Positions 318 to 33,326 of a stretch of DNA of 58,925 bases are shown here, in pieces. The notes under the pieces were generated by a model that ran no database searches, was not told the DNA's origin, and was given only the letters and a program-made list of their open reading frames with translations. This DNA comes from Cyanobium sp. CACIAM 14 (GTDB lineage: Bacteria; Cyanobacteriota; Cyanobacteriia; PCC-6307; Cyanobiaceae), in contig JMRP01000015.1 in the NCBI GenBank assembly GCA_000708525.1, positions 1 to 58,925 of the forward strand, in the 5' to 3' direction. Both the position numbers and the translations under genes were made by a program. Numbering within the stretch: position 1 is the first letter of the stretch; each line of letters begins with the position of its first letter.

Positions 318-552
318 GGCCGGCCGATGAGATGAACCTCCATCCACTGTGCCGCGTCCTGATCTGGCCTCGCGGCAGCCCGCCTACATCGTGACCCGGT
401 GTCCCGCGTCCATTACCGCCTGGGACTGACCTACCAGGGGCAATGAGCCTGCTCCTCTGGGAGGGCGGTGCCGGTGGGGTCAGGGAGGGTGAGCATCAGG
501 GCGGTGCTGGTCTCGCCCTTCACGCCGCCCCGGTCCCTCTCTGCCCAACAGG

Positions 553-576
553 AAGGCGCCCCGTGGGGGGCGCCTT
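553..576. terminator. Strong GC hairpin, terminator-like
   Basis: Perfect 10-bp stem (AAGGCGCCCC / GGGGCGCCTT, 553-562 and 567-576) with a 4-base loop GTGG, followed on the plus strand by TTTG. This is a typical cyanobacterial intrinsic-terminator shape, but the U-tract is short and no gene ends immediately before it. The surrounding stretch 348-1010 shows no convincing coding region on either strand. Confidence 0.5.
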
Positions 577-1040
577 TGCACCGGTTGCGAACCGTCACCT
601 TGGCATCTGGGGCACGATCCGATCGGGTGTCTGTGCTCCACGCATGACCTGTCTTGGGCCTGGCAGGGAAGGGATAGGGATCACGCCTGCGGGAAGAGAG
701 GCTCAAGGCTTGACCTTTCCGGTTGTGATCCCGGCCCGGGTTATGCAGCCCGGGGGTTCAACCAGCGGGAACCAGATTATGGCTCACTTCGGCTACAAGA
801 TGACATTCGCGCCATACCATCGAGAAGACGGTTGCTTTGACGCATCTCGGGCGCACCTCCTCTGTGCGCACCGGCTCGGGTGATCCCTGGCCGGACTCTT
901 TTGGAAGGTGGGGTCCGGGTTGGCTCCCAGGCCTCCCCTCAAGTTCAAGGTACGCCGCTGTCCAGGCAGCAGGAGCTCGCTGGAGTACCTGTTCCCGTAC
1001 CCCCGGTGACTGCCAGGAAAGTTGAAGACCCTACCCGGGG

Positions 1041-2096: not shown

Positions 2097-2122
2097 GGCC
2101 TTGCGGCGATCGGCAGGAGAGG

Positions 2123-2629
2123 TCAGTCCCCCGCGTCCTCGCCCCAGTAGGCCTGGATCTTTTTTGAGGCAATCAGCAGCGCCGCCGCCTCCGCCAGGGC
2201 CTTGTCCTTACGGCGCAACTCCTGCTGCAGCCGCTTGATCTCGCGCTGATCGGCCTGGTGGCGCTTCTCCAGGTCCTTCTGCTCGGCCATCGTCAGCAGC
2301 GGTTGGGCATTGGCATCCTGGGCGGCCTGGCGCCAACGGTCCACCTGCTCGGGGAACAGGCCCCGCTCCCGGCAGTAGGCACCCAGTTCGGTGCTGTTCA
2401 GGCCGGCGGTCTCCAGCACCACCGTGAACTTGTCGGCCGGGCTCCAACCCTCAGGGTCCTTCTGGGTGGCGGGCACCACCTCCCCCTGGAGCCGCCAGGC
2501 CTTCCTCCACTTGTAGAGGGTGATCACGTGGATGCCCAGCTCCTGGGCGATCTCCGCCACGCTCTGGCGGTGGGGAGGCCCCATCCGCCGGCGCACATCA
2601 GCCTAGACGGCCTCGCTGTAAGGACGCAT
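2123..2629 (-). pseudogene. IS3 OrfA (HTH subunit) with an amber codon at codon 9
   Basis: DNA-binding subunit of the IS3 element. It has a helix-turn-helix (SVAEIAQELGIHVITLYKWRKAW), a central domain and a C-terminal leucine-rich coiled coil (KRHQADQREIKRLQQELRRKDKAL), as expected for OrfA. The natural start appears to be the ATG at 2629 (MRPYSEAV), but codon 9 is TAG (2605-2603). The frame then resumes as ADVRRRMGPPHRQS. A GTG at 2596 could restart translation and give 157 aa lacking only the first residues, so the gene may be partly functional. I infer a point nonsense mutation in an otherwise intact frame. Confidence 0.7.
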
Positions 2630-2861
2630 CGATCGGTTCCATCAGGCCCCCTGGTGGTTGAAATGGTCGGGATGGAGAGGCGTCATCATTCCTGGCAGAG
2701 GGGGGGTCCCCGGCCCATTCTGGCCAGATTAGGGTTCTCATTCACTCTGGACCGGTTTCCGGGGTCAAGGCAAGGAACCACTCCAGAACGGATGTAACAG
2801 GAGATACCAAAGCCAAAAGCATCGGCCCGCTAAATTCTCATAGAATATTCAGCATGGATCA

Positions 2862-5800: not shown

Positions 5801-7373
5801 TAATATTTACCTGCATGATCGACAAACTGGAGAAACGAAGCCAATAAGCGGTATTTCATCAGAGGAGGTCGGTTCTGACTCCAACAACCCTGCAATCAGT
5901 GGCGATGGTCTCTTGGTGGCATTTGATTCTGTGGCAGACAATCTAGACGTAAATGATCGCAATCGAGCTTCTGATATCTTCCTGTATAAGGCTTCGTCTA
6001 ATGAAGGTGAGGCCTCGTTCTCTATCAGCGGGACACCATCAATTGGTCAGATTCTACGCATCATCCTCGAAGATGCCGACCCCGAGGGTGATCCCCCAGC
6101 TGGTTACAGCTACCAATGGCAGTCTTCCGGAAATGGAATCAGTTGGACAGCCATCGATGGAGCCACTGGATCCACATATAGCCTCTCTGATGATAGTGAA
6201 GGCAAGCAGATAAGAGCCATTATCTTATATGTTGATGGGAGAGGGTTCGCCGAAGAGGCCGTTACTTCTCCTGTTAAAGTGTTCCCCAAAAATAACGGTG
6301 AAGCTATTTTTTCTATCGTCTATGCGCCTGGCGTCAAACATATTCTCAATGCCATCCCTGAGGCGGGAGATCCCGATGGGAATCCTGAGACTGGCTACGG
6401 CTATCAGTGGCAGAGCTCCGGCAACGGCAGAGATTGGACGGATATCGATGATGCCACGAATTCTATTTACTCGCTGACTCCTGCCGAGGAAGGCAAGCAA
6501 GTGCGGGTGAAGGTGTCATACATCGATGCGGCAGGCTTCGCAGAACAGGTCTTCTCCAAATCTGTTTCCGTACCGTCTGCCCCTACCTACACAGTTACCT
6601 CTGGTCCAACCAGCCTGTTCGAAGGTGACACGCTTGCAGCCAGCTTGACCACCACGAACGTGGCGGAGGGCACGCGTTTCTATTGGGCCTTCTCCGGCTC
6701 TGATATCACCTCTGGTGATGTCGTGGGTAGTGCTCTCACCGGAGACGGCCAAGTCGGTGCTGATGGCACGCTTAATGTCTTTCTAGGAGTTGCCCGCGAT
6801 AACCTGATCGAAAGCGACGAGCTCATGGAACTGCGGTTCTATGCCGACAGCACCCGCAGCCAACAAGTGGGTGCCACGACCTCTTACATCATCAAGGATG
6901 CCATGGTGGGCAATCCCACCGACAGCAGCGACAGCATAATCGGCACTGCGGCAGCCGACATCCTTCGGGGGGTGCCGACCGACTCCCCTGCCAGTCACAG
7001 GGGTAAAGGCACGGTCGATCTACTGACTGGGAACGGAGGTCCGGATCTGTTCGTGCTCGGGGATGCGCTCGGCCCCTTCTACGACGATGGCAATCCGCTC
7101 AGTCAGGGCCGAGGTGATTTTGCGGTGATCACTGATTTCAGCGTCGGTGATCGCATTCAGTTGCACGGCAGCGCCCAGCAGTATCTGCTCGGTAACGGCA
7201 CTTATCAAAGTAAGATAGGGGTTTTTATCTATGCCCGCAATCCTGAACGGCCCATCTCTAACCGGGTATCGTTCTACGACGAAGCGATCGGTTTTTTGGA
7301 GGGTGCCAACCTCAGCCAGCTCAACCTCAGCAGCACGGATCAATTCCAATACACAGACTTGGCTTTGGCCTAA
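2862..7373 (+). CDS. Large secreted repeat protein: beta-propeller, Ig-like repeats, RTX-like C-terminus
   Basis: 1503 aa, no Sec signal peptide. Residues 1-650 are beta-rich and unassigned. Residues about 655-1045 contain seven TolB/WD40-like blades, each of the form Y-V-V-F-S-S-x-A-S-N-L-x-x-x-D-x-N-x-x-x-D-V-F-x-x-D, i.e. a complete seven-bladed propeller. Two Ig-like repeats follow (YSYQWQSSGNGISWTAIDGA, YGYQWQSSGNGRDWTDIDDA; about 1050-1240), then a Calx-beta-like segment (FEGDTLAASLTTTNVAEGTR). The C-terminal 150 residues are RTX-like (IIGTAAADILRG, GNGGPDLFVLGD, FSVGDRIQLHG), as in cyanobacterial type I-secreted proteins. An extracellular adhesin- or S-layer-like role exported by an ABC/HlyD/TolC system is inferred; no exporter genes are nearby. 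The first three quarters are clearly AT-richer than the flanks and the C-terminal part is GC-rich, suggesting a mosaic origin. Confidence 0.85.
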   Translation: MVQDFASIEIKRSGLPIDDGSASFTPTAEVKTASGLTFTVNYEPIKFSFQPDGTTNTFSFDKTDDGVRLTFTTSYSRYGDGNLDTTFVDSWLLEGSINLTRQSDGLYDKAIFIGSGVEQEYITTGEGVTSKGSFNVPIGSLHPSSYNTIYEQSGLNLDLSLDETIGLSPDFLAVLQDLWRPSFGYFTQPHYGPYYYFYPRVLQPSIKPSLSITASSQEIGVGPDHRLGLNIKANYRTSPSGTISVLEVRVPSGFQVIESTGLGVIRSKVIDTAGNGDTILNFETGNISSSGIINGNLVVEATGRSQPADKPYDHQWNSLIAGTLRYQDGSSALPQSVVTTVYVDSSKGLAQDLARDLRLDLKSYIDQVKSQSLGQVKGVGMSALLPNKYDMLGIMMNDYRDFGTDIVRQRAEEYVGEIQSQFKQPAELLYRLIEQNSKSLASLLTERFRQAAMQNLLPGLYKNIEEFRQTATDLGISYNDGVISYLSSTAMGNLGLGVEVRRLTDFASEQLKRIRSGDSLSLSSFANAVIGDITYSTAFSKLLPYGNIGFGVNANFNNGQLSGSVEVNPSLSIPLAGGRLRLNVGGTTDYNFSPNAPTYKLNISVQLTEPFKPLYSPLLERIAPLKSVEDPLLSFNALSNSSDISETRQAVIKGNGDSSQPVFDLLGRHLLFTSYASDIIDDDINNVADVFLLDLESNALENISIGFGGAAANGDSEGYAVSPDSQYVVFSSIANNLIENDLNDARDIFIRDRQANTTRRVSLSVAGKESNGASSLASLSADGRYVVFSSAASNLVENDTNEVVDVFVRDLQSGTTERISVANDGAQANGDSLSSRSAISADGRYVVFYSYASNLVSDDGNDVADIFLRDRLKGTTKRVNINVSGNEADDISLAASISSDGHYILFSSLASNLVEGDANEASDVFLVDLQSGIIERVSIRSDGAESDGNSDSSFMSTNGRFIVFRSRASNLGLDNTASRYNIYLHDRQTGETKPISGISSEEVGSDSNNPAISGDGLLVAFDSVADNLDVNDRNRASDIFLYKASSNEGEASFSISGTPSIGQILRIILEDADPEGDPPAGYSYQWQSSGNGISWTAIDGATGSTYSLSDDSEGKQIRAIILYVDGRGFAEEAVTSPVKVFPKNNGEAIFSIVYAPGVKHILNAIPEAGDPDGNPETGYGYQWQSSGNGRDWTDIDDATNSIYSLTPAEEGKQVRVKVSYIDAAGFAEQVFSKSVSVPSAPTYTVTSGPTSLFEGDTLAASLTTTNVAEGTRFYWAFSGSDITSGDVVGSALTGDGQVGADGTLNVFLGVARDNLIESDELMELRFYADSTRSQQVGATTSYIIKDAMVGNPTDSSDSIIGTAAADILRGVPTDSPASHRGKGTVDLLTGNGGPDLFVLGDALGPFYDDGNPLSQGRGDFAVITDFSVGDRIQLHGSAQQYLLGNGTYQSKIGVFIYARNPERPISNRVSFYDEAIGFLEGANLSQLNLSSTDQFQYTDLALA

Positions 7374-7448
7374 GTCAGGGCCTTTCCAGGTTACGTTCTG
7401 TCAACCCCACGCCCATCCCATAGGCTCCTCAGCACCTCATTCCCTCCC

Positions 7449-7982
7449 ATGAATCAGCTCTTTCGGTCTTCGGTTCTCCTTGGCACTCTCGTTGCAGGGA
7501 CGACCCTTGGCCCTGTGTTGCCAGCCTCTGCTCTGCAAGTGGTGGTAGGTGGCCAGAGCTTCGAACTCTCGGTGGAAGAGGTGGCTCCGCTTGACCAACC
7601 TGCCTGGTTCGAGAGCCTTGCCAACGGTGGCCGCATGCCTTGGTGGGGATATGAACAGCATGCGGCAAACTTTGCAGAGCAGGCGGGCGCAGCGCTGGGC
7701 TCTCTTGGGCCAGAGCTCCCTTTCTCCGAATTCGGGCCCCTTTTTGCCTTCGGTCTCGATCAGGGAGACGTGCTGAGCGTGTCGCAATTCATTGCGCCAC
7801 CGGCAAATTCCCAGGGCATCTTCCCGACTACTCAGGATCAGGTGTTCCGCTTTGCCGTGGGCAGACCTCTCGGACCCGTTTCATCCGTACCAGGTCCCAT
7901 GCCGATTCTGGGACTGAGCTTGGCCTATGGCTGGTCACGGCGAATGCGTAGGCGTATCCAGTTGACAGCTCAGAAGCCTTGA
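7449..7982 (+). CDS. Secreted protein with PEP-CTERM-like sorting tail (177 aa)
   Basis: A signal peptide is evident at residues 1-29 (SVLLGTLVAGTTLGPVLPASALQ, likely cleavage after ASA). The mature part has no family I recognise. The C-terminus carries VPGPMPILGLSLAYGWSRRMRRRIQ: a proline-rich VPGP motif, a hydrophobic helix and an arginine cluster. This is the cyanobacterial variant of the PEP-CTERM exosortase signal, so the protein is probably membrane-anchored, then cleaved and exported to the cell surface. It lies 75 bp downstream of the large secreted protein gene and may be co-transcribed. The body contains two tryptophan-rich stretches (QPAWFESLANGGRMPWWGYE). Confidence 0.75.
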   Translation: MNQLFRSSVLLGTLVAGTTLGPVLPASALQVVVGGQSFELSVEEVAPLDQPAWFESLANGGRMPWWGYEQHAANFAEQAGAALGSLGPELPFSEFGPLFAFGLDQGDVLSVSQFIAPPANSQGIFPTTQDQVFRFAVGRPLGPVSSVPGPMPILGLSLAYGWSRRMRRRIQLTAQKP

Positions 7983-12057: not shown

Positions 12058-12951
12058 TTACCAGTCGTTCCACAGCCTTACCGCAGCATCTACAAAGGCA
12101 TCGCATTGCACCTGAGTCCAGCAAGTGAGGTGTCCGTCACGGAGCAGGTAATAGTTCTCGTTAGCGCACACGAGGTCTTTCTTTACAGCCTCCTCGCGAT
12201 ACCAATTCAACGTATTGACCACACAGTCCTGGTAGCTGGCAGCAAGCTTTGAGTTTGGTACGTTATAGAGGAGTCCTTCTATAAAGTACGAAGGTGCTGT
12301 GTCGGCTCTGATTAGGCCATCATCAGCCATCCTACTGCGGATGTTCTTAAACACACGAACCATGGGCTTGAGCCACCTTGAGGTATTCTGATGTTTTGAT
12401 GTAAGATTCGCCGAATGCTGTTTTGGATAGTTCGCAATCCGCTCCCCTTTACCGTTCCAGAAACATATTCCTTCAGCGTATTTGGAGTCGTTCGAAGAGG
12501 AGAATTTAAAATAGCGTCGGAACTGTGTAGCCACGATAACGTCGGCTTTTCGACGCGTTCCGGAGGCATCGATGGCAATCGCTTTGTCACCTGTTTTGAC
12601 CGCTGACCCGTATTGGTTTATGAGCACTGTAAGGACATCCCGCTTGAAGTCGACATACGTGTAGGTGGCGTCGCGATACGCCAATCTGTAAACAGCCTTT
12701 TCCTCTTCGTTAAGATATCCAAGGTCGCTATAGAAGCAGTCGTCGAGACGGATAACGATGTCTACATCGCTCTCGGCGTAAATGTTTGTATCATTCCCGT
12801 ACGAGCCTTGTAGGAACACCTTGAAGTTCTTACCGGCATACGGAGTCGTGCTGGCTTCCAATACGTTCTTGATCGTGTTGTAGGTGTTGCTCGACTGGGT
12901 GATTGATCCCTGGTGAGACCATATTTCGAGCTGAGATTCAGGAATTGGCAT
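12058..12951 (-). CDS. CBASS cyclic-oligonucleotide synthase (CD-NTase), 297 aa
   Basis: Nucleotidyltransferase with the CD-NTase signature [21 protein letters not shown] at residues 49-50, metal-binding Asp62 and Asp64, third carboxylate probably Asp137 in [10 protein letters not shown]. The helical C-terminal lobe includes [16 protein letters not shown] and the [13 protein letters not shown] segment typical of this superfamily. The role known for the family is to sense phage infection and make a cyclic di- or trinucleotide second messenger. The adjacent upstream gene (13 bp away) is a patatin-like effector, so the pair forms a minimal type I-like CBASS without Cap2/Cap3 regulators. I cannot name the clade or nucleotide product from sequence alone. 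It is the last gene of a defence operon that starts with hsdR. Confidence 0.87.
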
Positions 12952-12964
12952 CTGTTCTCCTTGA

Positions 12965-13912
12965 CTACATCAAGTAATGACGAAGCGCCTTTTCCCTCAA
13001 CGCGAAAGACTCTCGCCCCCTCTGGAATAAGATGTTCAGTTTCCTGAGGTCATGTTCAAGAAGGTCGGTCGCCATCTCAGGCGTTACGTAGGTGTCGCTG
13101 ATTCGGATTGTAGGTATGTCATGAAACAGGATCTGCCGCAGTTGGTCCATCGACTGCGTGTTGATCTCCAGGGTCTTCTGCAGTAGCTGGACGCTGATGA
13201 GGTACTTCTTAACCAGCCTCATCAACAGGCCAGGCTTAGGGTCAGGGTAGGTACCGACGCCAACGCTCACCAGCCGGATGTCCTTGCGATCACGCTGAAG
13301 CGCTTGAACCGCATCGGCGATCGCGTACAGAGTCGGGTTGTTCGCACAGTACCCGCCGTCGATGAGTTCAATGTCCTCGCCCATCGATGTCTTCACGATT
13401 GTCCGCTCAAAAAAAGGATATGCCGAACAGGATGCCTTAACGGCGTCGGCCATACTAACGCCAAAGCCAGGGACGAACGTGCCAACTCGGCCGTGAGCCT
13501 GTGCAACGCTTCCCTTGAAGATCATCGGGCGCTCAGTCAGCCACTTAACCGTAATGATCCCGATGCCAGTCTTGACATCGCTGAACATAGAATTGCCAAG
13601 CACCTCAGTCGTCAGCTGTTGCAGGGCCGTCGATCTTTCAGATGCATTATTTTTGGACATTACCGTAGGCACGTGCTTGCGATACAGAGCCAGGATGGAG
13701 TCGATTCCATAGCCAAGTCCAATCAGCGACGCGATGATCGCTCCCGTGCTTGTTCCAAAGACGAGATCGAACTTCTGGTGCAAAGGGCACCCGACCATCG
13801 CCTCGATCTCTTTTAATACACCCAAGCTATAGAACCCCTTGGCGCCCCCTCCATCCAGCGTGAGTACACGAAATATTTTTTCTTCGTTTGAGCCGTCCGC
13901 CCCATGACTCAT
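12965..13912 (-). CDS. capV: CBASS effector CapV, patatin-like phospholipase (315 aa)
   Basis: Patatin fold with the glycine-rich oxyanion loop DGGGAKG (residues 20-26), nucleophile elbow GTSTG (Ser55) and catalytic Asp in DGG (Asp185). All three catalytic elements are intact. In CBASS such enzymes are activated by the cyclic nucleotide made by the neighbouring CD-NTase and degrade inner-membrane phospholipids, causing abortive infection. It lacks transmembrane segments, consistent with a soluble enzyme recruited to the membrane. It starts 27 bp after hsdS and ends 13 bp before the CD-NTase, so co-transcription with both is likely. Confidence 0.88.
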
Positions 13913-13939: not shown

Positions 13940-15607
13940 TTATACTCGCACTGAAGCCGAAGGCAGGGCTTCATTCAAGACAGCCTCCAGGAAACGGCGG
14001 CTGTACTGATCCGTCTCTGTGATCTGTGCTTCCAGCTGATCGCAGATTGCCATCAGCTCATCCACCTTCGCGACGATGCGGTGCTGCTCTGCAGTAGGGG
14101 GAAGGGGAAACAGATAGGCCTTGAGAGCTACTCCAGTAAAGTGCTTGATTCCTGTTCCAGTGAACTGCTCGGCGAGTCTTCCGTCATCAGAACTTGCGCG
14201 AAGAGCATACACAAAGAAGTTGGGATCGACATACGGTTTAAATCGGACACGGTGTATAGCCTTTTGGAAATAGACACCTTTCATTCGTTCATCCCAGACC
14301 GCTGCACGTCCAGGCTCTCCCCCTTCACAGATCAATACATCGCCACTTCTAAGCTCGAACTCACGGAGCTCACACTCCTCGAAACGCATCTCAAGAAGAT
14401 CAGAAAGATCAAAATCAAACCAGCGTACATTTAGGTTTCGCAAATACGGGTGGGAAACTCCCTTATTCTTAGCCTTGTCGAGCATCTTCCCAAGGCGTGT
14501 GTCCGCTACCGCGCCGACATTTGCCCAGACCCAATTCAGAGGAATAGGGAATTTCCCTACTAGAATAGGCTGAGCGTTATTACGCTTCAACAGCTCCGCC
14601 GCCGGTTCATCACTGGGGTCTTGCGGCACCAGCTTCCCCCGCACGGCGAGATTCAAGATCGACTGGCGAAATTGCTTGATGTGGGCTGCACGGGTCGTGA
14701 TGCGTGGCAGGTTGTTAAAGGTGAAATGGGCATGCTTGCGGAAGGTTTCTTCCTCTTCGGCGGGCTGGCTCAATCCCTGCAAGCTGGCTGCCACCAAGCT
14801 GTCGCGGCATTGCTCGCGCTCCGACTTCGCGGCCTCCAGCTGATCGCAGAGGCTCATCAGCTCATCCACCCTGGCGACAATGCGGTGCTGCTCGGCGAGG
14901 GGGGGGAGGGGGACAAGAAGTTGTGCCACATCGGTCAAGCGGAAGCTATTCTTAATACCCCGCTGAGGTTCGTTGAACTGAGCTTGGGCGAATTGTGAGC
15001 GAAAGAGTTCGGGTAGGTAACGTCCCTGCATTTCCACCATCGGGCGAACCATTGCAGTGTGTTGGTTGATGTAGGCTTCACCGAATCCCTCGGGGATGAG
15101 CCCCAGCATTCCTACGTCGCCAGTAATGGATATCAGGATGTCGCCAGGCTCTAACCGCGTCCGAGTGCCTTCGCCACCCGATGGGGCCTTGACTCGCTGA
15201 ATGTGATCGAGGCGAAGACGATAATGATCCTTGGATAAATTACCCATACGGATGAAGATCGCGCCATCTTTCGAATAATATTTGGCCCAATCGCGCGAGC
15301 CGCTTGTGACGAGCATGGTTAGCGCACCTAGGCGGACCCATTCCCATCCACTCGGCACATCGAATGCTTTATCAGACTCAGATAGCTGTGGGAAAGGCTT
15401 CTCGCGTTTTATCTCCCCCGCCTTCACCATCCGCGCCTTCTCCGCCGCAATCCGCTTCAGCAGCTCCGATGCCGGTTCATCACTGGGGTCTTGCTCCACG
15501 AGCTTCCCTCTCACCGCCAGGTCGAGGATGAAGCGCCTCAGGCGCAGGATGGCGTCTGGCGCTTCGCTGATCCGCTCGAAGTGCTGCAGGAGCTGCTGAA
15601 CGTTCAT
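13940..15607 (-). CDS. hsdS: Type I restriction-modification specificity subunit HsdS (555 aa)
   Basis: Two target-recognition domains with the duplicated type I S architecture. Each half starts with a conserved spacer helix (FILDLAVRGKLVEQDPSDEP in half 1, SILNLAVRGKLVPQDPSDEP in half 2) and ends with a long conserved helix (AEQHRIVARVDELMSLCDQL and AEQHRIVAKVDELMAICDQL). The protein gives the methylase/restriction complex its bipartite DNA target. Its start overlaps the hsdM stop by 4 bp (ATGA), implying translational coupling. A near-identical direct repeat in the DNA of the two halves (around 14610 and 15475) could allow domain exchange. Confidence 0.93.
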   Translation of the reverse strand: MNVQQLLQHFERISEAPDAILRLRRFILDLAVRGKLVEQDPSDEPASELLKRIAAEKARMVKAGEIKREKPFPQLSESDKAFDVPSGWEWVRLGALTMLVTSGSRDWAKYYSKDGAIFIRMGNLSKDHYRLRLDHIQRVKAPSGGEGTRTRLEPGDILISITGDVGMLGLIPEGFGEAYINQHTAMVRPMVEMQGRYLPELFRSQFAQAQFNEPQRGIKNSFRLTDVAQLLVPLPPLAEQHRIVARVDELMSLCDQLEAAKSEREQCRDSLVAASLQGLSQPAEEEETFRKHAHFTFNNLPRITTRAAHIKQFRQSILNLAVRGKLVPQDPSDEPAAELLKRNNAQPILVGKFPIPLNWVWANVGAVADTRLGKMLDKAKNKGVSHPYLRNLNVRWFDFDLSDLLEMRFEECELREFELRSGDVLICEGGEPGRAAVWDERMKGVYFQKAIHRVRFKPYVDPNFFVYALRASSDDGRLAEQFTGTGIKHFTGVALKAYLFPLPPTAEQHRIVAKVDELMAICDQLEAQITETDQYSRRFLEAVLNEALPSASVRV

Positions 15608-21260: not shown

Positions 21261-22277
21261 TCAGCTGCGTGTGGCCGCCAGCGCCAGCTCATGGGCCTGG
21301 GTGAGGGTGGCGGCGGCCTTGCCGAACCAGAGGCCCTCCAGCCGCTGGCGGGCCGCCTCGATCGGATCCTTGGAGCGGCCGGCGTCGTGGGAGAGGTGTT
21401 CGGTCACCGCCTGATAGGCCCCCCACATCGAGCCCTGCACTCCGGGGATGTCGCTGCCGATGGCCTGGCCGTCGAACTTGGCTGCCAAGCTCTCCCAGGC
21501 GGGCAGATCCTCCAGCCTGCGGGATCGGCTTGTGGAGGTATCGCCGCGGCGGTCGTTGATGCTCCCCCGCAGCTGATCAGCGAAGAGCGTCTCCACGTAG
21601 CGGCGGAACTGGGCGGTGGTGCAGGGGGTGGCGGCCATGGCGCGGAGTTCCGCCAATCCACCAGTGAAGCGCTGGCGCTGCAGATCGATGAGCTCCGGCA
21701 GACGGCTGATCAGGGCGTTGGCATTCCGTGTGTGGCGGATGCGGCAGCCCTGCTGGCGGCGGCTTCTGGCGAAGGCCAGCCCGAGGGCAGCGGAGAGGGT
21801 GTTCTGGCAGACCACCCGGATGGGGGAGAAGAAGACCGAGAAGGCGATGGTGCCGTCATGGCTGGTGCAGCCCACCAGGTACTGGTTCACCGGATCACCG
21901 GGGAGCACCTCCCCTTCTGCCTGGCGGATGCGAGCGGTGAAGGTCACCTTGCGGCCGCCGGCCAGGACGCAGACTGCATCCATCTGGGCATCGCTGTGGA
22001 GGGCCTCGGCGACACGGATCAGCTGCTCGTTCTGCACCACTTCATAGGTGGCGTTCATCACCGAGAGGGTGGCACCGGTGTCGGTGCGGGTGATGGCCTG
22101 GTAGCCACTGATGGGCTGCATGTCGGCGTCATAGACCGGTCGGCTGGCGATCTGGAAATCGGCAGCAGCGAGGCGGAAGGCCTCGCGGGCCGGCAGGGTG
22201 CCATCGAGGACCAGGCCGAGCCGGTGCCAGGCGGGCTGGTTGTGGAAGAAGACACCGGAGTGGAAGTCGTGGGACAT
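21261..22277 (-). CDS. DUF932 (plasmid/phage-type) protein, 338 aa
   Basis: Starts at the ATG at 22277 (MSHDFHSGVFFHNQPAWHRL). The pattern PAWHRLGLVLDGTL ... ISGYQAITRTDTGATLSVMNATYEVVQNEQLI ... VVCQNTLSAAL is characteristic of DUF932, a family found on plasmids, phages and integrative elements, often near single-strand DNA-binding proteins. Its biochemical role is not established. The upstream ORF extension to 22370 is Pro/Arg-rich and is rejected. It is the last gene of a minus-strand operon that includes an SSB-like protein, which points to DNA replication, repair or conjugation functions. Confidence 0.8.
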   Translation of the reverse strand: MSHDFHSGVFFHNQPAWHRLGLVLDGTLPAREAFRLAAADFQIASRPVYDADMQPISGYQAITRTDTGATLSVMNATYEVVQNEQLIRVAEALHSDAQMDAVCVLAGGRKVTFTARIRQAEGEVLPGDPVNQYLVGCTSHDGTIAFSVFFSPIRVVCQNTLSAALGLAFARSRRQQGCRIRHTRNANALISRLPELIDLQRQRFTGGLAELRAMAATPCTTAQFRRYVETLFADQLRGSINDRRGDTSTSRSRRLEDLPAWESLAAKFDGQAIGSDIPGVQGSMWGAYQAVTEHLSHDAGRSKDPIEAARQRLEGLWFGKAAATLTQAHELALAATRS

Positions 22278-22391
22278 GGGTACACAGCTGCGGCCGATGG
22301 GCCGCCAGAGAGGACAGGAGAAAGCCGGCCTCGGGGGGGAGACCGGCGAGCGCTGGGGCGGGGCTTCCACCCGCCCGCCCGGTTCAACGGA

Positions 22392-25535: not shown

Positions 25536-25787
25536 ATGAATCCCGCTCCTTTGATCCTCAGCCAGGCCATCGATCGCCGGTCGTCCTACCTCACCGCCTG
25601 CGGCAGGCGTCCCATCCTCGGAGTACGTATGGGCCAATCAGAAATGATGGAACTGGAGCAGCTCTGTGCCGACCTGGGCTGTACCAAGTCATCGCTGGCC
25701 AGGAATCTGATCTGCTTTGGTCTTAGGAACAAGGCGGTGCTGCTGTCTAGCGATAGCTCAGAGGTTATAGCCACACCGAATGTCTGA
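25536..25787 (+). CDS. Ribbon-helix-helix-like DNA-binding protein (83 aa)
   Basis: The core RRPILGVRMGQSEMMELEQL with CADLGCTKSSLARNLICFGL reads as the beta-strand/helix/helix of Arc/CopG-type regulators ('i.vrm...e...l...a...g.skS.l.R..i..gl'). Such proteins commonly repress plasmid replication genes. It sits 35 bp upstream of the primase-helicase gene in the same direction, so it is a candidate copy-number regulator or auxiliary origin-binding protein, and possibly the protein that reads the dispersed palindrome. The N-terminal 28 residues are extra to the fold. Confidence 0.65.
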   Translation: MNPAPLILSQAIDRRSSYLTACGRRPILGVRMGQSEMMELEQLCADLGCTKSSLARNLICFGLRNKAVLLSSDSSEVIATPNV

Positions 25788-25822: not shown

Positions 25823-28800
25823 ATGGCGACTACACCAACCGGCGATTCCTCCAAAGAACGGCCAGAGGATTCCTCAGTTCAAGGAACTCCTGCAGAACAC
25901 AATGGCGAGGCTTCTGTCGAGAAAGCGAGGCTTCCTGTAGAGAAGAACAACCCGAGTACACCAGAGAAGCCGAAGCCTCAGACCACAGAGGCAGCGAAGT
26001 CGGAGGTCAAGAAGTTGCCGGAGAACTGGCGGCAGATGCGGGCCATTGATTTTGCGGAGCAGAAGCTGTTCCCGAAGGAGTGGTCGTATCTGGGTGTGAG
26101 GGGGAAGGATGCGTTCAAGAAGAACTGGCAGAAGGAGAAGAAGAGGCTGGTCGATGCGGTATGTGATGTCAGGACGTATAGAAGGGCCACCGGGTTGGGG
26201 GTGGTGACGGGGACGCTCTCGGGGGGATTGGTGGCGATTGATATTGATGGGCCTGAGGCAGAATTCATGTATGAGGCTTTGGCCACAGGACAGCGGATTG
26301 TTGGCTCTAAGTACCCGAAAGAGTGGTATGAGCCGTATGGGAAGGAGAAGACGATGGCCTGGACGTCGGGGAAAGAGGGGCGCAGGCAGATCTTATACAG
26401 AATTCCCGAGGGGTTGGTGAATGCATTGAAGGGGATCAAGACGCTGACGTGTACGAAGATTGGGATGTTTTTCCGTCCGGATGAACGAATTGATGAGACT
26501 TGGAAGATGGTACATGAGCTCGTCATAAGGTATGACGAATGCATGAGTGTGCTGCCGGGGAGTATTCATCCGGAGACGAAGAAGCGGTATCAGTGGTTGA
26601 GCTACAACGGCGGGATGCCGGCGGAGGCGCCGAAGTGGCTGATCGATGTGATGCTGGAGAAGGCGAAGCCTCAGGTCTCGGGGGCGTTCCTGGACAAGGA
26701 GGATCTCGATGATCTCAGGCATGAGACGCATCAGTGTCAGGTGCCGCCGAAGCAGATTCGGGGGTGGTTTTTCTCGGACAAGGTGCAGAGCCTGCTGAGG
26801 CCCAGGCTGGAGGAGTTGATCTTCAAGCATCCGGAGTTTGACAAGGCTCCGTGGGTTGATGGCAGTGGGGATACTCCGCAGAGGCAGAATGGATGTCCGT
26901 GGCATGAGAGTAGTTCACGCACGGCGTTTCAGTATTCACCGGAGAGCGGGAAGTGGTACTGCCATGCCTGCAAGGTAGGCGGAGACGTACTGGACTTTGT
27001 CCATAAGATCCGCACGGATGATATGAACGCGGATCAGCCAGATCCGCTTTCTTTGGAGACGTATGTCTCGGAGATTGCTCCGCAACTGGGGTTCACCTAT
27101 CCGGATGATCTGCTGCCGACGAGCAAGACAACGGCGGTGCCGAGATTGGAGATGAGCTCCAGGGAGTTCCTGGATCGATGCAGGAAGATCATCGCGGATA
27201 CGACGAACCCGGCAGAGCAGTCGCTGCAACTGGAGGCGTTCGCGCAGCAGACGGTCTGGTGGCGGCAGACGCCTGCTCAGATCCGGGAGCGGGTGGCTCG
27301 GGATGATGAGTTCCAGAGGAACAAGAACGGGACGCTGCTGCGGTCGAAGACGTGGATGAGCGAGGCCGCCCCCGAGGAGTATCTCATCCCCGGCTTCCTC
27401 AGGCGGCCCAGCCAGGTGCTTCTCCACGCTCGGGGAGGCGTGGGGAAGACGGACACAGCCCTGGCCTTGGCCAAGGCTATTGGCAGGGGTGAGGTGTTGA
27501 ACATTCGGGGCCTCGATGTGCAGTGCCAGAAGGGGAATGTGCTTTGGATCTCGGGGGATCAGTCGGAGACCAGGCTTGCACTACAACTGCTGAAGCACGA
27601 TATTAATCCTTCGCAGGCGGATGATTGGTTCCATCTGGTGACTGAGTGGAAGATCGATCTTCCTAGTGTATTCACGGATCTGATAAAGCAGGTGAAACCT
27701 GCGCTTGTAGTCATCGACAGCTTGAGTGCAGTCTCGGACATTGGAGATGTCAGTGAGAATGAAGGTGCTTATGCGGCACCTCTATATTCCATGGCACGTA
27801 GGAATGGAGCGGAGAGTGCTCCAGGTGGATTTCCAAGTTGCGCTATAGTCTGGATTCACCACAACACGAAGAGCGGGGACAGTTTTAGAGGTACAGACCG
27901 GATTTTGAATGCAGTCGATGAGTCGTGGGAACTGTTTCAGCCGGATGAGCAGCAGGAGGAGGAGTTCGGGCCGAACGCCAGGGTGCTGAAGATCGGGAAG
28001 AGCCGCTACGACCGCTCAGGGGACCGCCTGCTGGTCGAGAGGGACCACAACCTCACCTACACCCTCAGGGACCTCACGCCGACGCTATGGAGGCAGGGGA
28101 GGCTGCGGAACGGGGATCTGGACCCCTCAGGGGTCGTGCTGGAGGTGCTGAGGGGCGCTGAGGAGGGGTGGCTGACCCTGGATCAGGTCCGGGATGGGGT
28201 GAAGGAGTACGTGCTCGGGGAAGGCAGGGATCGCTTCCCGAAGCGGACGGCGGTCTTCAAGTACCTGCAGGTCTGGGTGACGGATGGGCTGGTCGAGGCC
28301 GAGGAGGTGAAGTCCTCGGGGAGAGGCCGTCCGTCCAAGCGGTATCGCCTCGCGCGTGTGGAGAGAGAGAAAGATTGTGAATTAATTGATTGGGACAACC
28401 GAGACTCATGGCCCCGAGCGCTTTCTGAATTTATTCGCGACACCATGAGACCGGCGAATAAATTCCAGAACGAGCCCAGCGTGAATAAAAAGACCGGCGT
28501 CGAACCGGGGGGTGCCCCCGAGGGCGGGGGGAATTTATTCACGGAAGGGGCCGCCGGGAATTTATTCACGGTGCGTGAACAAAATACGGTCGCTGAAAAC
28601 CCTTGCGAGACAACGGTCCCCGAGGACGCTGGGAATTTATTCACGGAGTCTCCCGGTCTTCACGCGCGTGAGGAGGCCGATTCAGGGGATAAGCAGGACT
28701 TATGCCCAGAGGAGGGATCGATAGGGGAGGCCCCCGAGGGCGAGGAGGGGGTCATTTCAAATGAGGGTCCCATCGAGTCTCAGGTGGGCTCGGGGGAGGA

Positions 28801-28840
28801 CTGGGACACCTGGGAGGCCTTCGATGCGATGTTCGACTGA
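25823..28840 (+). CDS. Replication protein: Prim-Pol, zinc motif and RepA-like helicase (1005 aa)
   Basis: Disordered charged N-terminus (1-60). A bifunctional primase/polymerase-like domain (about 65-300) has GLGVVTGTLSGGLVAIDIDG, with IDID as the likely metal site. A CHC2-like zinc motif follows (CPWH ... WYCHACKVGGDVLDFV, about 358-395). A RecA-fold RepA-type helicase has Walker A GGVGKT (about 540), Walker B LVVIDSLS (about 634) and WIHHNTKSGDSFRGT. A winged-helix segment (GVVLEVLRGAEEGWLTLDQV ... GLVEAEEV) resembles DNA-binding tails of satellite/plasmid initiators. The last 140 residues are low complexity with three NLFT repeats. The architecture is that of stand-alone replication proteins of phage satellites (P4 alpha-like) and plasmids: origin recognition, unwinding and priming in one polypeptide. 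Iterons overlap its 3' end. Confidence 0.85.
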   Translation: MATTPTGDSSKERPEDSSVQGTPAEHNGEASVEKARLPVEKNNPSTPEKPKPQTTEAAKSEVKKLPENWRQMRAIDFAEQKLFPKEWSYLGVRGKDAFKKNWQKEKKRLVDAVCDVRTYRRATGLGVVTGTLSGGLVAIDIDGPEAEFMYEALATGQRIVGSKYPKEWYEPYGKEKTMAWTSGKEGRRQILYRIPEGLVNALKGIKTLTCTKIGMFFRPDERIDETWKMVHELVIRYDECMSVLPGSIHPETKKRYQWLSYNGGMPAEAPKWLIDVMLEKAKPQVSGAFLDKEDLDDLRHETHQCQVPPKQIRGWFFSDKVQSLLRPRLEELIFKHPEFDKAPWVDGSGDTPQRQNGCPWHESSSRTAFQYSPESGKWYCHACKVGGDVLDFVHKIRTDDMNADQPDPLSLETYVSEIAPQLGFTYPDDLLPTSKTTAVPRLEMSSREFLDRCRKIIADTTNPAEQSLQLEAFAQQTVWWRQTPAQIRERVARDDEFQRNKNGTLLRSKTWMSEAAPEEYLIPGFLRRPSQVLLHARGGVGKTDTALALAKAIGRGEVLNIRGLDVQCQKGNVLWISGDQSETRLALQLLKHDINPSQADDWFHLVTEWKIDLPSVFTDLIKQVKPALVVIDSLSAVSDIGDVSENEGAYAAPLYSMARRNGAESAPGGFPSCAIVWIHHNTKSGDSFRGTDRILNAVDESWELFQPDEQQEEEFGPNARVLKIGKSRYDRSGDRLLVERDHNLTYTLRDLTPTLWRQGRLRNGDLDPSGVVLEVLRGAEEGWLTLDQVRDGVKEYVLGEGRDRFPKRTAVFKYLQVWVTDGLVEAEEVKSSGRGRPSKRYRLARVEREKDCELIDWDNRDSWPRALSEFIRDTMRPANKFQNEPSVNKKTGVEPGGAPEGGGNLFTEGAAGNLFTVREQNTVAENPCETTVPEDAGNLFTESPGLHAREEADSGDKQDLCPEEGSIGEAPEGEEGVISNEGPIESQVGSGEDWDTWEAFDAMFD
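28426..28646 (+). repeat. Iteron-like repeats inside the 3' end of the primase-helicase gene
   Basis: GGGAATTTATTCACGG occurs three times exactly (28529-28544, 28556-28571, 28631-28646). Related copies are GAATTTATTCGCG (28426-28439) and, inverted, CGAATAAATTCC (28452-28466), CGTGAATAAAAA (28480-28491) and CGTGAACAAAAT (28574-28585). The core TTATTCACG differs by one base from the DnaA box TTATTCACA. Repeats occur on both strands at irregular spacing and encode the NLFT peptides. Likely the origin or initiator-binding region of this element. Confidence 0.7.
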
Positions 28841-29121: not shown

Positions 29122-29844
29122 ATGAGAAAGAGAATTGCAGTTCTGACTATTCTGACAACTGTACTTGCGGTTCTTGTTGCAATGTTTGGGGTAAATAAGA
29201 TTCGTGATGTGACCTCAACCCCACCGCCGTCTTTTGAGCCTCTGCTTAAGCCTATAACTGTGCCTACGCCATCTATGTCTAGGCCTCTGCCACGCCTAGG
29301 TGCTGTGGACGAGATAGTGAATAATCTTGAGTGGGGAAACATTGCATTTGATGCACCCAAGAAAATGAAATATAGAGATACAAAAGTCATCGAGTTACTT
29401 CTGTCGCCAACCAAATCCATCCAAGAGCTTCAATCCTCTTTGAAGTCTCATGAGCAAGTTGAGACGGCACGGATACAGATATCCAATCGAATGGAGGCAG
29501 GCCTTTTGGGACAAGGCTTTAAGATTGAGGCATTAGTTCCGGAAGAACAGGCCGTTTCCAGGGGCAAAGCAACGCAGTGGAAATGGGAAGTTACTCCGAC
29601 AGAAGGCGGGATCAAGAGCCTGCATCTTACACTGTCAGCCATTATCAATGTTTCGGGTCAAGATATACCGTATGTAATACGAACATATGATAAGACAATT
29701 AAAGTGGAGATTTCCCCAGGTCAGCGTATCTCAACGTTTCTTGCGGGTAATTGGCAATGGTTATGGGCAAGTATTCTTGTGCCCCTATCTCCCTTCCTTT
29801 GGAAATGGTACCAAAGAAGCAAGGGCAAAGAAACAGACGCCTAA
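29122..29844 (+). CDS. Membrane protein with two TM segments and a central beta-rich domain (240 aa)
   Basis: N-terminal TM helix (residues 5-24, AVLTILTTVLAVLVAMFGVN), then NKIRDVTSTPPPSFEP and a proline-rich linker, a soluble domain (about 75-205, including QISNRMEAGLLGQGFKIEAL and TQWKWEVTPTEGGIKSLHLT), and a second TM near the C-terminus (WQWLWASILVPLSPFLWKWY) with a basic tail. The soluble domain resembles a beta-sandwich seen in some bacterial signalling or conflict proteins, but I cannot name it with confidence. The motif FGVNKIRDVTSTP is nearly identical to FGINKIREVTSSP in the 87-aa protein at 43586. AT-richer than its surroundings; probably imported cargo of the element. Confidence 0.7.
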   Translation: MRKRIAVLTILTTVLAVLVAMFGVNKIRDVTSTPPPSFEPLLKPITVPTPSMSRPLPRLGAVDEIVNNLEWGNIAFDAPKKMKYRDTKVIELLLSPTKSIQELQSSLKSHEQVETARIQISNRMEAGLLGQGFKIEALVPEEQAVSRGKATQWKWEVTPTEGGIKSLHLTLSAIINVSGQDIPYVIRTYDKTIKVEISPGQRISTFLAGNWQWLWASILVPLSPFLWKWYQRSKGKETDA

Positions 29845-29957
29845 GGAAACTGTGGAAAAGCCGGCGCACTCACGGGAAAATGATCCTGTGATCGTAGGTA
29901 CTCATTGGGTTCATGGGCGGCAAGCAGCTCAGTTGTTGAGATTACGAGCAGTGCATA

Positions 29958-30687
29958 GCAATGAACCACACGAGGCTCGAACGACTTCTTGCTGAGATGG
30001 AGGCAGTTGCGCCCTAGAAGGCCCTGATCGATTTGATCGAGCTCCACTACCCCAAGACCAGCTCCATGGGCGGTCGGCCCGCCTATCCGCTGGCCACAAT
30101 GCTGCGAATTCACCTGATGCAGCAGTGGTACGACCTGAGCGATCCAGTGATGGATGGAAGATGCCCTGATCGAGGTGCCGACGATGCGCCGCTTCGCTGG
30201 CATCAACATGGACAGCGATCGGATCCTTGATGAGACCACGATTCTCGCGTTTCGGCACCTGCTGTAGAAGCACGACCTCGGCGAGCAGATGACCGCTTCC
30301 TAGAAGACTTGGCCGATGAGACGGTGAAGTGCCACCTCAAGGCCTACGACATGACGATGAAGCAGGGCGCAATCAGCCACGCGACCTAGCTTGCGGCTCT
30401 CAGTTCCACCGAGAACGAGAAGAGGGAGAGGGATCCGGATATGTACTAGACCATGAGGGGGCGACCAGTAGTGCCGCGGGATGACGCTCCATATCGGTGT
30501 GGACACGGACTCAAGCCTGATCCACTCAATGGAAACCCCCGCCTCCTACGTGCATGACCTCACCCCAGCAGTCGACCCCCTTCATGGTGATGAGACGGTC
30601 GTCTACTCCGTCGCGGGGTACCAGGGCGTCGAGAATCGCACAGAAAAGAAGGGCAAGGGCCCCCGTCCAGCCCACCAAGCGCCCTGA
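29958..30687 (+). pseudogene. Decayed IS5-family transposase
   Basis: Recognisable IS5 segments in order: RLERLLAEMEAV, KALIDLIELHYPKTSSMGGR, YPLATMLRIHLMQQWYDLSD, then (after a 4-bp GATG duplication near 30150) EDALIEVPTMRRFAGINMDS and LDETTILAFRHLL, AYDMTMKQGAIS, and finally HIGVDTDSSLIHSMETPASY and HGDETVVYSVAGYQGVE. At least four in-frame stops interrupt it, all TAG. Further frameshifts separate the blocks. Clearly non-functional. The sequence beyond, to 30965, shows no gene. Confidence 0.8.
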
Positions 30688-30965: not shown

Positions 30966-31217
30966 CTACTCTAGGTCGTAGATCTCGGGGAGAGCGCGTG
31001 TACGTGCGCGAAGTGTTTCTTCGACGGCAGCGAAATCCCACAGCAATGGGGGCTTAGGGCCTGTCCCCTTTGTAATGTAGTGATCGCCGGGGAGAAGTAT
31101 GCGCTGCTTCCTAAGCTGACGGACTGTGGTGTGGCTTAGGCGCAAGAGTCGGTACAACTCATTACTGGTGATCCATCGCGGGGAATCTGGCGCGGCAGGT
31201 GAGCGGTTGGTGGTCAT
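30966..31217 (-). CDS. Excisionase-like small HTH protein (83 aa)
   Basis: Begins MTTNRSPAAPDSPRWITSNE at 31217. The central RWITSNELYRLLRLSHTTVR, followed by a basic QLRKQRILLPGDHYITKGTG and LWDFAAVEETL, has the winged-helix layout of excisionases/MerR-like recombination directionality factors. It is immediately downstream of the integrase on the same strand (240 bp), the standard neighbourhood for a directionality factor. The short basic C-terminal half would be the wing. No catalytic residues are expected. Confidence 0.65.
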   Translation of the reverse strand: MTTNRSPAAPDSPRWITSNELYRLLRLSHTTVRQLRKQRILLPGDHYITKGTGPKPPLLWDFAAVEETLRARTRALPEIYDLE

Positions 31218-31455
31218 TAGAGCGCAATGCAGAGCCACAATCCCGGATGGGCTTGTGGAGTGGAAAGGTTCGCTCTGCGTATGCGTTATGCCGCTGCTTC
31301 AAGATGCAGCGTCCCGTCTTACACGGAACTAATAGGCTTGCCGCCATCACCATCACACCTTCTTGAAGTATTGCGACGATGGGGTTCCCGCTGGGCGATC
31401 CACGGTACTTGAAAAGATTTTAGAGGATCATCGCAAGAATGACAACCCTTGCGTC

Positions 31456-32667
31456 TCACCCTACAAGGTGATCGAAGTGGGTGGCGACAGCCTCGGCATC
31501 CTGCCACTCCGAATATGAGCGCAGGTGAGATTCAAGACTGTGACCGCAGGCAGCAGCAAGGACTTTTGGGGGGATTCCACGAAGTTGGCCGCGCTTGACG
31601 TAGCTGTGGCGCAGCGAGTACACCACCAACTCGTCACCTCGTTGGGCAACTTCAGTACGCAGCTGCTTCCAGATCAGCCGACGTTTCAAGAAAGTGTTTA
31701 AAGCATCACCGGCTTTGCCGGGGGCGCCGAGTGGTGGAAGGGTCTCACCCGAAGCGAAGCGGGCCTGAAGTTGCCAGTCTATTGGCCCGTCTGGCCCATG
31801 AATTAGCAAGGGGTGGAGTTGACGAGGGCGAGTGTGACCGCCTCCACTAGCCTTGGAATAGAGAGACCACAATTGGCCTTGGCGCAGAGAGAGATTAGCC
31901 AAATCAGCAGGGCGCAGGCCGTAAACAGCCATCAGCTCTAGACCAAAGCGCCAGCGAGGATCATCAATGCCACCGATCAAACGTAGAATCTCAGGGTCAC
32001 TGAGTGGGTAGCCGATTCGTTTGGAAGCACGGCTCATACCAACAATCGCCACAGTGTCAGCAGGTGGAAGCCAGGCACCACGTCGAAATCCATGTCTTTC
32101 AACTGCAAAGAGAAGTAGCTGGCAAGTGTTCTGCACCGCAATCTGTCTTGATCGACTGCCAGGCTGCCAATGGCTACAGAGTGCCTCCAGCAGGGCCCTA
32201 GCGTCCGTTGGTGGTTTTGGACCCTGCATCAGGCTCTGCAAACGGTCAAAATGCGGTTCATACGTAGAGGTCCAAGTAGTCTTCTTGATCGGTACTTTGC
32301 CGTGGTTGAGTTTGTGCTGGTAAAACTGCTGGACCAACACGCCCCAATCCTCTTGATGGTGGGAGCTGGATCCTTCGATTTCAGTCGACGCAGCCTGCAA
32401 GGTACGACCACCAGCAAGCATCGAGGCGCGTATCCTCTTCACCCGCTCATAGATGTTGGCACGCTCGCTTGCCGCCCACCGATAAGGCAGTCGGACAATC
32501 TGGGCTGACTGGCCCCTCGGTCGAAACTGGAGGTAGGTCATCCCCGACGGCAAGCCTCCTATAAACCAGCCGGTCTCAGGCTTGCCATCAGCCCCGATGA
32601 ACAGCGCCTTCACCTCCTGGCGAAGGAATTGGACCCATGGCTCCTGGGTGGTTGCCGATCGCTTCAT
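31456..32667 (-). CDS. Tyrosine-type integrase of the island (403 aa)
   Basis: Phage/island integrase. N-terminal arm-binding-like region (GGLPSGMTYLQFRPRGQSAQ), core-binding helices, then the catalytic domain with Arg in AVYGLRPADLANL, HxxR-type box VYSLRHSYVKRG, the second histidine in GHSLESHLRSYSEW and the tyrosine in the same segment. All elements look intact. I chose the ATG at 32667 (MKRSATTQEPW); a GTG at 32763 would add 32 residues. It ends the element next to the tRNA-Pro half-site, which is presumably its substrate, with the putative excisionase downstream. Confidence 0.85.
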   Translation of the reverse strand: MKRSATTQEPWVQFLRQEVKALFIGADGKPETGWFIGGLPSGMTYLQFRPRGQSAQIVRLPYRWAASERANIYERVKRIRASMLAGGRTLQAASTEIEGSSSHHQEDWGVLVQQFYQHKLNHGKVPIKKTTWTSTYEPHFDRLQSLMQGPKPPTDARALLEALCSHWQPGSRSRQIAVQNTCQLLLFAVERHGFRRGAWLPPADTVAIVGMSRASKRIGYPLSDPEILRLIGGIDDPRWRFGLELMAVYGLRPADLANLSLRQGQLWSLYSKASGGGHTRPRQLHPLLIHGPDGPIDWQLQARFASGETLPPLGAPGKAGDALNTFLKRRLIWKQLRTEVAQRGDELVVYSLRHSYVKRGQLRGIPPKVLAAACGHSLESHLRSYSEWQDAEAVATHFDHLVG

Positions 32668-32820
32668 GGGATACAGGTCGTGCTGGTTGATAAACCATTG
32701 ATAAATGGGCTTCAAGAGGTCGAAACGCCTCGATCTCTTTCGACCTGCGATGGGCAAGAGCACAGTCTACGACAAGGTTTAGCGCGATTGACACAGGGGT
32801 CTTCACTTACAGTACCAACC

Positions 32821-32864
32821 GCTTTGGGAGCACTAGGTCGCAGGTTCGAATCCTGTCGCCCCGA
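32821..32864 (+). other. attR: 3' half of tRNA-Pro(UGG)
   Basis: GCTTTGGGAGCA carries the anticodon loop with UGG, followed by the variable loop, T arm GCAGG-TTCGAAT-CCTGT and acceptor strand CGCCCCG plus discriminator A, ending at 32864. No 5' half precedes it, so it is not a functional tRNA. This is the expected product of integration into a tRNA-Pro gene and marks the right border of the element. The upstream anticodon-stem bases do not pair well, which also argues against a complete tRNA. Confidence 0.85.
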
Positions 32865-33326
32865 CTGACTTCTCAGGGATTGGCGGCGGCAAACGTACGA
32901 CGGTGGTACGACAACGGCAGAATTCCCCCCGGTCGTGAATCTGTGGTCTCTGGGCGCTGCCAGGAAGTTCCGGGCAGCGGCTGCACTGAACCATTTGCTG
33001 CATTCCGCCGTGAACTCCCACCAACGAAGGCAGGAAGAAAAGCCTCGGGGGCGCTAACTGTCCGTCTTGATGATGTTCCTGCCACCGTTCAGGCAGGCTT
33101 GGTGGGACCGCCTCAAGCAGGCTTCGTTACCTACGTCCCTGCCAGAAACGATGAAGCCCCTGCTGTCCCTCAGGCGGCCATGACGTCCGCACCTGTCCAC
33201 ACGCATGGGTCCCAGGGCGATGGCGGATTGATCCAGACCCCCGAGGCAGACAGCCAGAAGCCCTGTAACCAAGCACCAAGGAGGAGACAACCTCGAAAAT
33301 CATTCCAACACCAGCAGAACCAAGCT
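32865..33326. other. Interval downstream of the attachment site, no supported gene
   Basis: The first stretch outside the inferred element. One plus-strand frame of 150 codons (32880-33332) is open, but its composition is unconvincing and it has no recognisable domain. Confidence 0.4.

Follow-up and report, generated by a model that had tools for sequence, protein, structure and literature searches.

In classical iteron plasmids, the iterons are direct repeats of one and the same orientation. In phage lambda, the repeats of ori lie inside the O gene and are bound by the initiator O, and ectopic copies arrest the phage (PMC4488673, PMC3985674; these papers, like those that follow, are cited from excerpts). 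PICI/SaPI elements carry an integrase, an excisionase and a primase/helicase-type rep gene, with the origin immediately 3′ of rep (PMC6092414). pRN1 needs an inverted-repeat stem-loop 3′ of its Prim-Pol gene, and among relatives the sequence of this region varies while its layout stays (PMC4234260). In the IncU plasmid RA3, oriV maps to the 3′ end of repB (PMC9455977). In PLE satellites, the initiator domain of RepA and its cognate iterons are swapped together, the phage nuclease Odn being the proposed driver (PMC8263062, PMC7145576). Among the literature matches listed, mostly from outside the subscription journals, no paper dealt with origins of the rep family considered here.

We analyse a cluster of short repeats in the 3′ end of a rep gene of Cyanobium sp. 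CACIAM 14, within a window of 58,925 nucleotides (the whole stretch of DNA analysed; contig JMRP01000015.1). As in lambda O/ori, the repeats are nested in the coding sequence of a putative initiator. Lambda O, however, is no primase-helicase and relies on P to bring in the helicase, whereas the window protein has Prim-Pol, zinc finger and AAA_25 domains; the lambda origin, with its four 19-bp iterons and A-T rich stretch, is situated in the middle of the gene, whereas the window sites are inverted and occupy the 3′ tail, behind the putative reading domain. Like PICI/SaPI, the locus has an integrase and a primase/helicase-type rep; a further small gene is weakly excisionase-like, and a tRNA fragment was recognized by eye. 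PICI/SaPI elements are also characterised by phage-dependent induction and packaging. PICI origins differ in that two iteron sets flank an AT-rich region, while the cyanobacterial family has arrays of six to eight sites in alternating orientation, which lack a clear AT-rich core and for the most part fall within coding sequence. ORF904 of pRN1 is also a Prim-Pol protein with a winged helix, but pRN1 combines an SF3 helicase with one large stem-loop, and the window a RepA-like RecA-fold helicase with several short inverted sites. In pRN1-type replicons a small repressor gene immediately precedes the Prim-Pol gene; the window has at that place a small ORF (25536-25787) to which neither Pfam nor PHROG gave a match. 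RA3 resembles the window gene in having its oriV at the 3′ end of the initiator gene; its initiator and repeats are different, and the excerpt of the RA3 paper describes no wing-linked exchange of specificity (PMC9455977). RepA of PLE is a RepA_N initiator without primase or helicase, and its origin is separate and noncoding. Unlike the iterons of classical plasmids, the window sites lie on both strands in a fixed order.

The cluster is best read as an intragenic origin that would work like lambda O/ori, PICI rep-ori and pRN1. We consider it likely that an integrative phage-related element has here its replication origin, or the initiator-binding part of one, and that the winged helix encoded by the same gene reads it. 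Two things appear new: a cassette that joins wing and origin, with its code, and the orphan arrays described below.

A repeat cluster inside the 3′ end of a rep gene

The best PDB fold match of the 1005-aa protein is the RepA helicase of RSF1010 (1nlf, E 8e-11), and its AAA_25 helicase domain has an RSF1010 RepA-like fold, not that of an SF3 helicase. The AlphaFold model, built on a 54-row alignment, has a mean pLDDT of 76, with block values of about 76-94 in the winged-helix stretch. The modelled winged helix (residues 768-843) consists of helices 768-778, 786-799 and 808-820 and strands 824-829 and 838-843. Behind it the tail is predicted to be disordered (residues 849-863 and 875-995 below pLDDT 50), and the repeats are the DNA of that tail.

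Seven clear sites and a weak one, on both strands, lie at 28375-28646 inside the gene (Table 1). The first-pass annotation had counted three exact 16-mers and four variants on both strands near the gene end, which is confirmed; the weak site is a fifth variant outside the range that it had described. Variants were accepted with up to two mismatches in an 11-base core, within a 400-base unit. At up to 3 mismatches, GGGAATTTATTCACGG has 5 matches in the window against 0.20 expected and a maximum of 2 in 100 shuffles, one of the five lying outside the cluster (15229-15244, 3 mismatches). In the whole assembly (3.2 Mb, 71 contigs, 96.6% complete), the 15-mer GGAATTTATTCACGG has 4 matches at up to 2 mismatches, all of them in this cluster. 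The copies translate, as had been noted, into an NLFT-repeat tail, and the three exact ones share one frame.

Table 1. Repeat sites, their gene, neighbouring features and orphan arrays (window positions unless a locus is named)
Feature	Position	Strand	Basis
Small ORF directly upstream of rep, ribbon-helix-helix-like by eye	25536-25787	+	ORF list; no Pfam or PHROG match
Replication protein gene, 1005 aa: Prim-Pol, CHC2 zinc finger, AAA_25, C-terminal winged helix, disordered tail	25823-28840	+	ORF, Pfam, AlphaFold, PDB fold search
Winged-helix codons, residues 768-843; recognition helix 808-820, wing 824-843	28124-28351	+	AlphaFold; wing/motif covariation in relatives
Weak site ATCAATTAATTCACAA, slot -11R	28375-28390	-	11-base core, at most 2 mismatches
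Conserved scaffold encoding DWDNRDSWP, anchor for aligning 13 units	28388-28413	+	Pattern search
Variant site CTGAATTTATTCGCGA, slot 40F	28425-28440	+	11-base core, at most 2 mismatches
Variant site TGGAATTTATTCGCCG, slot 66R	28452-28467	-	Window motif search and unit alignment
Variant site GTCTTTTTATTCACGC, slot 93R	28479-28494	-	11-base core, at most 2 mismatches
Exact site GGGAATTTATTCACGG	28529-28544	+	Window motif search and unit alignment
Exact site GGGAATTTATTCACGG	28556-28571	+	Window motif search and unit alignment
Variant site CGTATTTTGTTCACGC	28573-28588	-	11-base core, at most 2 mismatches
Exact site GGGAATTTATTCACGG	28631-28646	+	Window motif search and unit alignment
Excisionase-like small HTH gene, weak	30966-31238	-	PHROG 66, E 5.9e-4
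Integrase	31456-32763	-	PHROG 1, E 5.2e-9
tRNA 3′-end fragment (T-arm and acceptor, by eye), likely attachment-site remnant	32836-32866	+	Sequence reading
Orphan-unit arrays, in two genomes of the window's genus	L029 9200-12950 (6 units); L027 11700-16350 (5 units)

Genomic context

At up to 2 mismatches the tRNA fragment is unique in the assembly, and the window contains no whole tRNA. Between rep and the integrase (29841-30506), open frames look by eye like remains of an IS5-type transposase, and a DUF932-type gene (PHROG 1221) lies upstream of rep both in the window (21261-22370) and in locus L030 (4135-5241).

Elsewhere, the rep gene is found beside a terminase-small-subunit-like gene (E 8e-9) and an integrase (L030), with type I restriction genes, an integrase and tRNA-Pro in Vulcanococcus limneticus (L067), and, on a virus contig (L089), with a KilA-N gene, DNA polymerase A, an integrase and a gene matching head/tail proteins; L027 carries an integrase and tRNA-Pro. 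From this gene content, the module is common to temperate phages and integrative elements, and the integrative elements that carry it may be satellites. In L067, the HsdR- and HsdM-like genes (437-7460) near rep are possible element cargo. In L089, the KilA-N gene (12848-13705) lies directly 3′ of rep and its sites and weakly matches the BstA replication-inhibitor family.

Conserved slots and changing motifs in the genus

Of 42 genomes in the genus, 13, among them the window's own, matched at E 0.001, several only weakly. In the closest full gene, G005 (58%), repeats of GGTTGTTTCACGG occupy the corresponding position, again on both strands. On the conserved anchor we aligned 13 units, namely those of the window and of the G005 full gene, six from an array in G005 and five from an array in G002. 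A pattern for this scaffold (at most 3 mismatches) was found in 3 of the 42 genomes; a stricter exact pattern, which misses even the window and G002, was found in 1 of 400 family genomes.

In the 13 units the sites lie near slots 40F, 66R, 93R, 132F, 159F, 175R and 225F, with shifts of up to about 20 bases in some, and each unit has 4 to 8 sites (11-mer, at most 2 mismatches). The motif itself belongs to the unit: in a matrix of motifs by units (at most 1 mismatch) the own-unit counts are 4-7, and the off-diagonal cells are 0 save 8 of 156. These eight correspond to motifs one base apart (G005.1 with G002.3 and G002.4, G005.3 with G005.5, G005.4 with G002.5), and in such pairs the base is altered in most copies together. 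Slots and orientations thus persist among relatives, and the sequence changes together within most copies of a unit, which is what the first-pass annotation had wanted an alignment to decide.

Between units G005.5 and G005.6, identity is 94% on the left of the sites but 56% over the sites themselves. Over the 78 unit pairs, mean identity is 64% on the left, 51% across the sites and 56% on the right, the site region being the least alike in 48 of the 78. One part of the earlier interpretation does not survive this comparison: the core TTATTCACG is one base off what we take to be the DnaA-box consensus, so that the resemblance itself stands, but none of the motifs of the other 12 units looks like that box, and we rejected a DnaA-box origin.

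Phage and element loci in the family

A search with a four-row alignment found matches at E 1e-60 in 11 of 400 family genomes, including the window's own; on contigs, the alignment search gave 9 genome loci and the best 80 of 84 virus-contig loci, where scans with the single protein had found no matches in either genome or viral contigs. Weak matches to the protein also came from 20 plasmid records. In phage S-CBS4 (28% over the helicase), inspection of 1.1 kb by eye revealed no cluster of this kind.

Of 101 loci, the 91 with the stop codon of the gene were kept and the 10 lacking it left out; the 91, in which some contigs are represented twice, collapse into 53 clusters at 95%. The set of 52 proteins consists of 51 clusters, L118 and L130 being left out for want of a fixed motif, and of L153, added though 95% like L127 because its motif differs. 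In 12 loci (L033, L063, L067, L071, L079, L108, L118, L119, L126, L130, L139, L152), the automatic 10-mer search picked GC-rich coding words, and for several of these the motif was set by hand.

In the 52 loci, the own 11-base motif (at most 1 mismatch) has 286 matches between -750 and +320 relative to the stop codon (55.6 kb) and 9 in the remaining 806 kb, where about 13 would be expected by chance at even base composition; since the motif was defined from the cluster, the informative part is its scarcity elsewhere. In a frequent layout, R F R F R F, successive gaps measure about 42, 31, 38, 31 and 42 (e.g. L032, L080, L127, L128, L132), and a second group has gaps of 53, 25, 17, 116 and further. 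The 52 proteins show 28 left and 10 right motif halves, the right one often being GGACA. The cluster centre lies upstream of the stop codon in 49 of the 52 loci and downstream of it in L032, L034 and L108.

Wing residues follow the motif

Three proteins of 974 aa (L127, L149, L153) provide a nearly isogenic comparison. Of the 47 aligned positions at which they differ, 36 fall in the repeat-encoded tail, one is residue 104, and the other ten are among the 12 positions 777-788, which align with the wing (alignment and AlphaFold). Their motifs are TGAACGGACA in L127 and mainly GCAAAGGACA in L149 and L153. At the DNA level, L127 and L153 have a mean identity of 0.988 early in the gene and of 0.97-1.0 in the downstream windows, but only 0.47-0.87 in the stretch from -644 to -344 relative to the stop codon. 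The pairs L131/L141, L117/L126 and L142/L128 also drop in that region, some over longer stretches, as does L082/L088 on a less similar background. L127 and L128 have nearly identical genes and one motif, yet differ from -344 to -116 in the distal tail; a second exchange point therefore seems to lie there.

A partial-Mantel covariation analysis over all 52 proteins was not specific to the wing and gave high columns all over the protein because the clades differ; we therefore analysed 18 proteins of one clade. Their three motif classes were defined after inspection of the alignment, with L119 and L126 assigned by eye. Wing residue 785 is R in 7 of the 8 proteins with TGAAC (N in the other one), D in all 7 with GCAA and K in all 3 with CGAT. 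Its adjusted mutual information with the motif class is 0.908, as against 0.656 for the highest column in 300 label shuffles. Leaving out the repeat-encoded tail, the eight best of 477 variable columns all fall within 778-789, and the mean over 775-795 is 0.223 versus -0.046 elsewhere, the largest wing mean in the 300 shuffles being 0.085. Outside wing and tail, the closest relative belongs to another motif class for 16 of the 18 proteins, for 11 of them by more than 3 points. Ancestry alone is therefore insufficient to account for the match between wing and motif.

As far as the sequences tell, wing and repeat array are exchanged together, as a single cassette. The C-terminal winged helix of the same protein is the most likely reader of the sites; the first-pass annotation had proposed such self-targeting, and the tracking of the motif by wing residues in relatives makes it very probable. 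Within the domain, the recognition helix most likely contacts the more constant half of the site and the wing the variable half.

Orphan units

Tandem copies of the rep 3′ end follow truncated rep genes in two genomes, with six units in G005 and five in G002 and with differing motifs. Unit G005.1 is still the tail of a truncated rep gene, and the G002 array is interrupted by an insertion that looks transposase-like by eye. Ten of the 11 orphan units have 5-8 recognisable sites and one has 4, versus 8 in the window unit, although the open codons upstream number only 14-134 in ten of them and 272 in G005.1, against 877 in the window.

In viral contigs, the forward..reverse motif pairs of G005.1, G005.3 and G005.5 had no matches. 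For the motif pair of the window, the sole match there (L157) is a palindromic contig end (4553-4638), probably an assembly artefact, and was set aside. So was the sole match for the pair of the G005 full gene (L158), a phage gene without similarity to the rep protein. This unrelated gene (1687-2700) starts with a helix-turn-helix, immediately followed within the coding sequence by inverted repeats GGTTGTTTCACCGA, which may represent a nested origin arisen by convergence.

Discussion

The repeats reported by the first-pass annotation are confirmed, and its interpretation, a probable origin inside the 3′ end of the gene, is partly supported. We infer the following course of events. Copies of the protein would bind the 7-8 inverted sites via recognition helix and wing and assemble there; the assembled protein would open the DNA and initiate synthesis, using the helicase and primase that it carries itself. 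One homologous exchange would move a matched wing and set of sites, because the wing codons adjoin the sites, and we propose that origin specificity could therefore be changed in one step. Such a change would avoid cross-talk, incompatibility or origin-directed attack.

A rather unlikely alternative is that the protein does bind the sites, but for copy control, incompatibility or autoregulation, with replication starting elsewhere in the element. P4 crr and the control iterons of plasmids are models for such a role. Covariation indeed bears on recognition and not on firing, and base composition shows neither a skew switch nor a clear AT-rich region: GC skew keeps its sign across the cluster (means of 0.117 left and 0.084 right at 7 kb, 24 loci; 0.118 and 0.103 at 4 kb, 36 loci) and gives no support for a bidirectional origin, and GC content only dips to 0.527. 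Against a control role, own-motif matches elsewhere in the loci are at chance level, so that no second set of sites is seen, and a helicase-primase with a binding domain is a typical initiator. Moreover, the origins of PICI and pRN1 occupy this very place, according to the excerpts available (PMC6092414, PMC4234260).

Alternatively, a folded single strand could be the functional form, either RNA or DNA as proposed for the pRN1 stem-loop, the copies on both strands being hairpin arms. The inverted copies of the window do fold, as RNA, better than shuffled sequences (z -3.18), 1 of 200 of which folded equally well, and the essential stem-loop 3′ of the pRN1 Prim-Pol gene is described in the excerpted paper as varying in sequence while keeping its fold (PMC4234260). 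Yet such a score is expected of any inverted repeats. Separate hairpins need no common sequence, whereas all 7-8 copies have one, including pairs on the same strand, which argues for a common reader; and the wing residues track the motif. We regard this possibility as improbable.

The same tracking bears on a role for another DNA-binding protein in packaging (pac/cos), partition or repression, for which one could invoke the terminase-small-subunit-like gene of some relatives (L030) or the small ORF upstream of rep in the window. The motif follows the rep protein's own wing where the rest of that protein is nearly unchanged, and both swap together, which makes it very improbable that the sites belong to such a protein. 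Finally, conservation of the repeats as an NLFT peptide, which the three exact copies in one frame of the window gene might suggest, is rejected with near certainty, being contradicted by the relatives: both strands are used, from which the first-pass annotation had argued that DNA rather than protein is conserved, the tail is predicted to be disordered, other peptides occur in its place, and the cluster lies 3′ of the stop codon in 3 of 52 loci and its sites are kept in units cut off from the gene.

If the cluster is indeed an origin read by its own winged helix, it offers a natural, sequence-readable link between the wing residues of an initiator and its origin, and the near-isogenic natural pairs make the wing code testable with few proteins. 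It would also suggest a possible reason for placing an origin at the 3′ end of the initiator gene, key and lock being exchanged in one crossover. Temperate cyanophages and integrative elements would then be joined in one diversifying system of replication specificity.

The orphan units may have been left by successive recombination as fossils, or they may act as decoys or as donors for switching. They raise the question whether rival origins are kept as decoys by cells or satellites, in the way that cloned lambda origins are described to act in the excerpted paper (PMC4488673). It is a speculative idea, to which we give little weight, that the arrays form a heritable store of rival origins, serving as decoys that titrate the matching initiator of a phage or satellite or as donors for a switch of specificity. 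If true, such a store would amount to an origin-based immune memory.
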